From positions 51,186 through 115,185 of the forward strand of contig CAJXVU010000006.1 of NCBI GenBank assembly GCA_913062555.1: DNA of 64,000 nt, read 5' to 3'. The stretch comes from an uncultured Bacteroidota bacterium (lineage in GTDB: Bacteria > Bacteroidota > Bacteroidia > Flavobacteriales > Flavobacteriaceae). The notes under the pieces were generated by a model. It had not been told where the DNA came from, searched no databases, and saw only the letters and a program-made list of their open reading frames with translations. Within the stretch, counting starts at the first letter, position 1. Each line of letters opens with the position of its first letter. The translations under genes were made by a program, and so were the position numbers. Shown here in pieces: positions 32,707 to 35,073 of the stretch.

Positions 32707-32973
32707 TTAAATTTTGTGCAAAAATAGCTAAGCTAGGCAACATTACTTAGTTTTTAACAACTTTTTTAATGTCTGAAATTGTGGATTATATGTGGTAAAA
32801 AATAGTCAGACACAATGTAGATCACAAAAGTTCAGGCATTTAAACTTTTATTTAGTTGAATTATGTCTTAAATTTAGAGGTGCTCTTCGTTTTTGAGTAC
32901 AACCTAACAAAAATCATATTTTAACTTATGGATAGTCCTTAGTTTTATTCTATAACATAAAATCTCGAAACTC

Positions 32974-35073
32974 ATGAAAGTATTTGATGATAAACACATT
33001 AAGAATGTCGTTTTAGTAGGCGCGCATCACAGTGGTAAAACAACATTTGCCGAAACCATGCTCTTTGAAGCAGGAATAATAAATAGGCGGGGAACTGTTG
33101 AGACAAAAAATACAGTTTCAGATTATCATGAGATAGAACATGAACGGGGGATTTCGGTATTTGCGACCCCGCTACATACCGAGTGGCGTAACTACAAGAT
33201 TAATATTATTGATACCCCAGGATTGGACGATTTTTTAGGAGAAATTATATCATCCATTCGAGTTTCAGATACTATCGTTACAGTGGTTGATGCCAAAAAT
33301 GGTGTTGAAGCTGGTACCGAAATCATATGGAATTATGTAGACCGATACCTCAAACCAACGATTTTTGTGGTGAACCAAATTGATCATCCCAATGCCGATT
33401 TTGAAGATTGTTTTAAAGGGATCAAAGCATTGGTTGGGAATAATGCTGTGAAAGTTCAGTATCCTCTATTTATTGATGGGTCACTCTGTATTATTGATGT
33501 ACTCAAGATGAAACTCTATAAATTTTCGGCACAAGGAGGGAAGCCCGAGAAATTAGAAATCCCTGAGGATCAAATAGAACGCGCCAATACATTACATAAC
33601 GAATTAGTAGAAAAAGCCGCTGAAAATGATGAGGGACTATTAGATTTATTTTTTGATACAGGCACATTAAATGAGGACCAAATGCGTCAGGGAATGAAAG
33701 AAGGCATGCTGAACCATGAGCTGTTTCCAGTATTCTGTATCTCTGCACTAAAAGATATGGGAACCGGCCGAGTAATGGGCTTTATTGATAATGTAGCACC
33801 TGCTGCTGCCGACTTAAAGCCTGAGCAAAGTGTTACGGGGGATGAGATTAAGCCTATAGCTGCAGCTCCAACTTCCTTGTTTATATTTAAAACCTTATAC
33901 CTGGCCAATCTTGGTCAGGTTACTTTTTTTAAGGTGAAATCGGGAGAAGTGAAACTCAATGATAAACTTAAAAATTCAAGGACTGGAGAAACCGAAGTAA
34001 TTAATCACCTGTTTATTATGGATGGGAAGAAACGTGAAACGGTTTATAAACTAAGTGTTGGTGATATCGGTGCCACATTGAAACTGAAACATACTGAAAC
34101 CAATGACAGTTTATACAGTGGTAATAAACCTATTGGTATTAAGCCAATTCAATATCCGGAACCTAGAATTACAAAAGCTGTTTATGTTGAAAATAAAAAT
34201 GACGATGAGAAACTTACTGACGCTCTTAAAAAGCTTCACAGCCAGGATCCAACGGTTGCTGTGAGCTATTCTACAGAGTCCAAACAACAATTAGTAGGTT
34301 GCCAAGGCGAATTGCACTTAGCGACCATCAAATGGACCTTGCAAAACGTGTATCAGGTAGATGCCATATTTAAAAAGCCAAAAATAAATTATAGAGAAAC
34401 CATACAGCGCTCGTTTGCAGCTAATTATCGTCATAAAAAACAATCTGGAGGTTCCGGGCAATTTGCGCAAGTACATTTGAAAATTGAACCTTGGACGGAA
34501 GGCATGCCAGAGCCTGAAGGGTACAATATTAGAGGCAAAGAAGATCTCGATTTACCATGGGGTGGAAAACTAATTTTCTACAACTGTATTGTTGGTGGCG
34601 TGATTGATTTGCGCTATTTACCATCCATCATGAAAGGCGTATTAGAAGTGATGGAATCTGGACCGTTAACGGGTTCATATATTAGAGACGTTCGTGTAAT
34701 GGTTTATGATGGCAAAATGCACTCTGTAGATTCTAACGATATTTCCTTTAAAATTGCAGGAGCTCATGCGTTTAAAGAAGCCTTTTTAAATGCGAACCCT
34801 AAATTATTAGAACCAACACGTAAATTAACAGTACGCGTACCTGAGGATATGGTGGGTAATGTGATGACCGACTTACAATCACGACGATCCATAATTCAAG
34901 GGATTGAGAGTATAAATCATTTTCAGGTTCTGAATTGTATTACACCTGAGTCTGAGTTATTTGGCTTCTCAACCGAATTGCGATCACTTACCAAAGGTAA
35001 GGCTACATTCAGTTCACAATTTACTGATTATAAACCGGTACCTGCGAATGTGCAAAAGGCTTTATTGAATTAG
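32974..35073 (+). CDS. EF-G paralogue (EF-G2 type) lacking the switch II histidine
   Basis: A 699-residue translation-factor GTPase with EF-G domains I-V. The P-loop GAHHSGKTT (about 16-24), DTPG (80-83) and NQID are present. At the catalytic position of EF-G switch II (consensus DTPGHVDF) this protein has DTPGLDDF, so the GTP-hydrolysing histidine is a leucine. Domain IV and V sequences are complete (for example SGGSGQFAQVHLKIEP). This fits the Bacteroidota EF-G2 paralogues reported to support slow translation with little GTPase activity. The canonical fusA should be elsewhere. It stands alone with its own upstream region. Confidence 0.85.
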   Translation: MKVFDDKHIKNVVLVGAHHSGKTTFAETMLFEAGIINRRGTVETKNTVSDYHEIEHERGISVFATPLHTEWRNYKINIIDTPGLDDFLGEIISSIRVSDTIVTVVDAKNGVEAGTEIIWNYVDRYLKPTIFVVNQIDHPNADFEDCFKGIKALVGNNAVKVQYPLFIDGSLCIIDVLKMKLYKFSAQGGKPEKLEIPEDQIERANTLHNELVEKAAENDEGLLDLFFDTGTLNEDQMRQGMKEGMLNHELFPVFCISALKDMGTGRVMGFIDNVAPAAADLKPEQSVTGDEIKPIAAAPTSLFIFKTLYLANLGQVTFFKVKSGEVKLNDKLKNSRTGETEVINHLFIMDGKKRETVYKLSVGDIGATLKLKHTETNDSLYSGNKPIGIKPIQYPEPRITKAVYVENKNDDEKLTDALKKLHSQDPTVAVSYSTESKQQLVGCQGELHLATIKWTLQNVYQVDAIFKKPKINYRETIQRSFAANYRHKKQSGGSGQFAQVHLKIEPWTEGMPEPEGYNIRGKEDLDLPWGGKLIFYNCIVGGVIDLRYLPSIMKGVLEVMESGPLTGSYIRDVRVMVYDGKMHSVDSNDISFKIAGAHAFKEAFLNANPKLLEPTRKLTVRVPEDMVGNVMTDLQSRRSIIQGIESINHFQVLNCITPESELFGFSTELRSLTKGKATFSSQFTDYKPVPANVQKALLN

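Follow-up and report, generated by a model that had tools for sequence, protein, structure and literature searches.

The gene at positions 32,974–35,073 (forward strand) of the analysed window, a 64,000-nucleotide stretch from a 3.8 Mb Flavobacteriaceae genome assembly, is best explained as encoding a flavobacterial orthologue of Bacteroides thetaiotaomicron EF-G2 (BtEF-G2), which on balance probably translocates slowly with little or no GTP hydrolysis and is switched on by an FNR-family regulator at low oxygen. The family and clade of the protein, its motif changes, its insertion, its predicted fold and the promoter element common to its orthologues were established by computation.

This fusA2-like coding sequence (EFG II, Bacteroides EF-G2-type) is an intact, full-length open reading frame of 699 codons with an ATG start, its coordinates including the stop, and the 699-residue product contains all of the EF-G domains I–V (Pfam PF00009, EF-G_D2, EFG_III, EFG_IV and EFG_C). 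The sequence-only reading had described an EF-G paralogue with DTPGLDDF in place of DTPGHVDF, and the reading frame, the Pfam domains and the alignment agree with that description. The second EF-G of the genome is a canonical FusA, which keeps DTPGHVDF and is 31% identical to its paralogue. The closest named orthologue of the window protein is from Pontimicrobium aquaticum (78%). The AlphaFold model (pLDDT 90.8) has 8dmf, titled as ribosome-bound B. thetaiotaomicron EF-G2, as its top PDB match (TM 0.93), and the nearest PDB sequence is the 718-residue chain of 7uvp and 8dmf. In the PDB copy, this chain is labelled 'Tetracycline resistance protein TetQ'. The neighbours of the gene are leucine biosynthesis genes, a mechanosensitive channel, a DUF3817 protein and an AraC-type regulator, a setting that suggests no operon.

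The P-loop, GAHHSGKTT (33,019–33,045, residues 16–24; all features described here are on the forward strand), reads GAHHSGKT where EF-G has AHIDAGKT, so that His19 replaces the EF-G Asp. Switch I (G2), ERGISV (33,142–33,159, residues 57–62), has Ser61 for the Mg-binding Thr, as is typical of EFG II. In switch II (G3), DTPGLDDF (33,211–33,234, residues 80–87), the catalytic His of EF-G is replaced by Leu84 (33,223–33,225), which aligns with the His of DTPGHVDF in Thermus EF-G and in FusA of the same genome; the alignment with these two proteins places no other His at the catalytic position. The G4 motif is NQID (33,373–33,384, residues 134–137), with Gln for the Lys of NKxD. The P-loop and NxxD-type motifs had been described as kept, which holds in part: the P-loop is present and the Asn and Asp of G4 remain, but neither the Asp of the P-loop nor the Lys of NKxD is retained. 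Domain IV contains an insertion region (PWTEGMPEPEGYNIRGKEDLDLPWGGKLI, 34,489–34,575, residues 506–534) that is 17–21 residues longer than in EF-G. At the tip of domain IV is His583 (34,720–34,722), the counterpart of the EF-G His that is needed for translocation, and this tip His is present in all 217 EFG II proteins compared.

The window protein almost certainly belongs to the Bacteroides EF-G2 clade. Among NCBIfam models, EFG2_Bacteroid fits it best (919.9 bits), followed by a general EF-G subfamily model. As this best-scoring model is matched below the 1000-bit cut-off of NF058620, the protein is an orthologue outside the named NF058620 set. In an 82-row tree, built without the insertion columns, two FusA/EFG I rows are separated from all 80 EFG II rows with support of 100, and the window protein and BtEF-G2 lie inside one 63-row clade (SH-aLRT 100). 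This phylogeny, which the sequence-only reading had proposed as a check, bears out the suspected kinship with Bacteroides EF-G2 (fusA2, BT2167; 7uvp, 8dmf), as do the identity of 47% over 698 residues and the top structural match. The domain IV insertion was gained once on this tree and marks the 63-row clade; it occurs only in part of the Bacteroidota. At the EFG II signature positions of Margus et al. (PMC3150367), the window protein is identical at five of six type I positions (G16, L25, T291, G333, K352 and S61) and at five of seven type II positions (D216, V250, L264, K471, K472, E513 and G603). It differs from the subfamily in having Phe25 for Leu, as do 10 other members of the set, Val for L264, and Met for E513, the last as in BtEF-G2. 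It branches with EFG II apart from EFG I, and its switch I, RGISV, carries the Thr-to-Ser change (Ser61) of EFG II, in which the RGITI of switch I is relaxed.

The window protein shares with BtEF-G2 the domain IV insertion, the NQxD motif, an xDDF switch II and the lack of the catalytic His. NQxD is found in 122 of 165 members of the insertion clade, and Lys in 51 of 52 EFG II proteins that lack the insertion. The Asp following the His position is present in 156 of the 165, and the switch I Ser is also listed among the changes of this clade. The two proteins differ at the His position itself (Leu in DTPGLDDF, Ser in the DCPGSDDF of BtEF-G2), which agrees with the "different replacement context" noted beforehand, as well as in the P-loop (GAHHSGKT against GSSGSGKT) and in switch I (RGIS against YGYS). 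The insertion is about 9 residues shorter in the window protein, at 17–21 residues compared with 25–29. The only long insertion of BtEF-G2 relative to FusA comprises 25 residues (520–544), with 4 more relative to Thermus EF-G, and the equivalent figures for the window protein are 17 and 4. A 26-residue region unique to EF-G2 is reportedly needed for its function and said to cause the absence of GTPase activity; we infer that this region is the domain IV insertion. A single insertion, rather than the switch II residue, distinguishes the clade, and this shows which part of the protein to test.

The switch II residue was read in proteins from the genome-search loci and from 80 named loci. Among these proteins, His is found at this position only in FusA/EFG I. 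None of the 216 EFG II proteins in which this position could be read has it; they have Leu (123), Tyr (42), Phe (29), Ser (12), Ala (6), Met (2), Thr (1) or Val (1), and the 82-row tree shows no fewer than 22 switches of residue there. The absence of His, together with these many changes, indicates that its loss dates from the base of this EFG II set or earlier and that the replacement has been drifting. Leu84 is neither chance nor error, since DTPGLDDF is present in nearly all Flavobacteriaceae orthologues read. Leu, the usual state in Flavobacteriaceae, is also found in a Bacteroidota clade without the insertion (L007, L011), and thus arose more than once. These two loci and their relatives form a separate clade with DTPGLLDF and TKLD, in which the Leu is independent.

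The replacement of His by Leu had been taken to predict weak or absent GTPase activity, an argument that does not survive comparison with two characterised members of the subfamily. Thermus thermophilus EF-G-2 (1wdt, 2dy1; DAPGYGDF) and Mycobacterium smegmatis EF-G2 (9k0z, 9k10; DTPGYADF) are EFG II-type proteins that lack the catalytic His and have Tyr in its place, where the window protein has Leu. The Thermus protein is reported to bind and hydrolyse GTP and to work in poly(Phe) synthesis, while the M. smegmatis protein, which comes from a different phylum than the window protein, is reported to have no ribosome-dependent GTPase (PMC3150367). As Tyr accompanies both reported outcomes, and as all EFG II proteins read are without His, GTPase activity cannot be predicted from the switch II residue, and His loss was rejected as a predictor. 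The His-to-Leu change is best regarded as a lineage marker, not a mechanism.

Weak or absent GTPase activity is nevertheless plausible for the window protein, given its kinship with BtEF-G2, which according to published papers supports GTP-independent translation and translocates without GTP hydrolysis. By analogy, the window protein probably translocates while hydrolysing little or no GTP. It is possible, though rather unlikely, that the protein still hydrolyses GTP as Thermus EF-G-2 does, with other residues or the ribosome taking the place of the His, and that expression or rate is all that separates it from FusA. The reported activities of the Thermus protein, with which it shares five domains, the lability of the switch II position on the tree, and the GKTT P-loop, DTPG and near-normal RGIS switch I that it still possesses are all compatible with such an enzyme. 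However, Thermus EF-G-2 is only 30% identical to the window protein and has TKLD, and it lacks the insertion, NQID and xDDF that the latter shares with the BtEF-G2 clade; the nearest characterised relative, BtEF-G2, is the one reported to be without GTPase.

A main role in ribosome recycling, rescue of stalled ribosomes or ribosome protection at low oxygen or during starvation, instead of in elongation, seems improbable. In its favour, EF-G paralogues of mitochondria and Borrelia are recycling-only factors (PMC3150367, PMC4342817), and the divergence of EFG II lies mainly in domains I–III. Yet the domain IV tip His and the loop glycines for translocation are invariant, domain IV is enlarged, and a member of the same clade, BtEF-G2, reportedly supports translation.

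An FNR-type box (TAACAAAAATCATATTTT, 32,905–32,922; consensus TRAC-N4-RTCATNTTTT) is located upstream of the gene, followed after 17 nt by a Bacteroidota-type −7 element (TAGTTTTA, TAnnTTTR; 32,940–32,947) that ends 26 nt before the ATG. The centre of the palindromic box precedes the inferred transcription start by about 42 nt, a distance that matches the spacing of about 41.5 nt at class II CRP/FNR activator sites. The resulting composite, TRAC-N4-RTCATNTTTT-N17-TAnnTTTR (32,905–32,947 in the window), is common, with fixed spacing, to the upstream regions of Flavobacteriaceae EF-G2 orthologues. Of 49 regions upstream of Flavobacteriaceae-type EF-G2 genes, 15 contain it exactly and 28 with up to three mismatches, numbers that overstate independence because related sequences are counted separately; reversed-pattern and shuffled controls gave 0 and 0. 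About four in ten of the EF-G2 upstream regions examined contain no recognisable box. From these sequences, FNR-type control of the EF-G2 promoter appears likely. The left half-site of the EF-G2 boxes is mostly TAAC (L042–L058, L146 and others), with TGAC in some EF-G2 promoters and TGAC or TGAT elsewhere in the regulon. The TAAC boxes may bind FNR more weakly, or another CRP/FNR paralogue may bind there instead.

The promoter of the window gene is unlike that of B. thetaiotaomicron fusA2, which is controlled by BT4338 on carbon limitation (PMC6989115). The BT4338 site, TATGTT-N4-AACATA, has no match with up to one mismatch in the 49 Flavobacteriaceae-type upstream regions; in the Bacteroidales, two loci (L206 and L224) have it at −123, as an exact or nearly exact match. 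Near-matches before the window gene, at 32,789 and 32,944 (2 mismatches), are within chance and were dismissed. The FNR-type box at the EF-G2 promoter is what is new here. A text search of the available literature collection found no report on flavobacterial FNR and EF-G.

In the same genome, the composite (up to one mismatch) is also present upstream of ccoN, hemN and a cytochrome c gene, as well as upstream of genes for a UspA-like protein, the copper nitrite reductase NirK, a NorC-like cytochrome and NadA. The UspA-like and NorC-like proteins were named from sequence, the latter having no strong NCBIfam match. The genome encodes two copper nitrite reductases (on contigs C13 and C53), and an FNR-type box is found at the C13 copy. 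Eight relatives, picked because their EF-G2 site fits the composite, have 44 exact composite sites, compared with 0 control sites. The annotated sites in these genomes precede ccoN, hemN, cytochrome c, norC, uspA and EF-G2 genes, in addition to hydrogenase-like and sulfide-quinone-reductase-like genes. As read from these gene contexts, the fixed-spacing FNR-type composite defines a predicted low-oxygen regulon in this genome and its relatives. The regulator would be a member of the FNR family. Four proteins with an HTH_Crp_2 domain are encoded in the genome, and an Fnr-like gene, whose product has N-terminal cysteines, adjoins the cco cluster on contig C21.

Orthologues of EF-G2 are present in 95 of 400 sampled Flavobacteriaceae genomes, with a patchy distribution. 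Their presence is not linked to denitrification: nirK is found in 18 of the 95 genomes with EF-G2 and in 55 of the 305 others (Fisher p 0.88). Outside the window's own class, the wide EF-G family model matches a second time in nearly all Bacteroidota sampled. Two contigs titled Deltaproteobacteria and Desulfobulbaceae (L162 and L191) carry a Bacteroidota-type EF-G2, and are probably misbinned MAG contigs or mislabelled records. The lost catalytic residue and the patchy distribution might suggest that the gene is decaying and that the Leu arose recently by degeneration. This reading is extremely improbable and was rejected on conservation, since the reading frame is intact and full-length, the protein is 62–80% identical to orthologues of many genera, nearly all of which have Leu, and the promoter is conserved.

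We know of no activity described for any flavobacterial EF-G2 member. The loss of GTPase, the translocation, the identity of the regulator and the physiological role that we infer would come together as follows. The gene encodes an EF-G paralogue of five domains, in which the nucleotide site is degenerate and domain IV carries an insertion, and the protein would bind the ribosome at the EF-G position. Its retained domain IV tip would then move tRNA and mRNA slowly, most likely with little or no GTP hydrolysis. An FNR-family regulator would switch the gene on at its class II-type promoter, along with those for the cbb3 oxidase, HemN and denitrification, and EF-G2 would take over from FusA, or supplement it, when oxygen, and hence energy, is scarce.

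It has long been asked whether translocation requires GTP hydrolysis, and BtEF-G2 is the natural translocase reported to work without it. We suggest tentatively that in the roughly one quarter of Flavobacteriaceae genomes that have it, EF-G2 is under FNR control and replaces or supplements FusA at low oxygen. GTP-sparing elongation might then be part of a general anaerobic or energy-stress programme of the Bacteroidota and not a gut-colonisation feature of Bacteroides, control of it having passed between regulators of the CRP/FNR family, with BT4338 acting in Bacteroidales and an FNR-type protein in Flavobacteriaceae. The FNR-type promoter would make aerobic, culturable marine bacteria available for the study of GTP-sparing translation, with oxygen limitation as a simple trigger.
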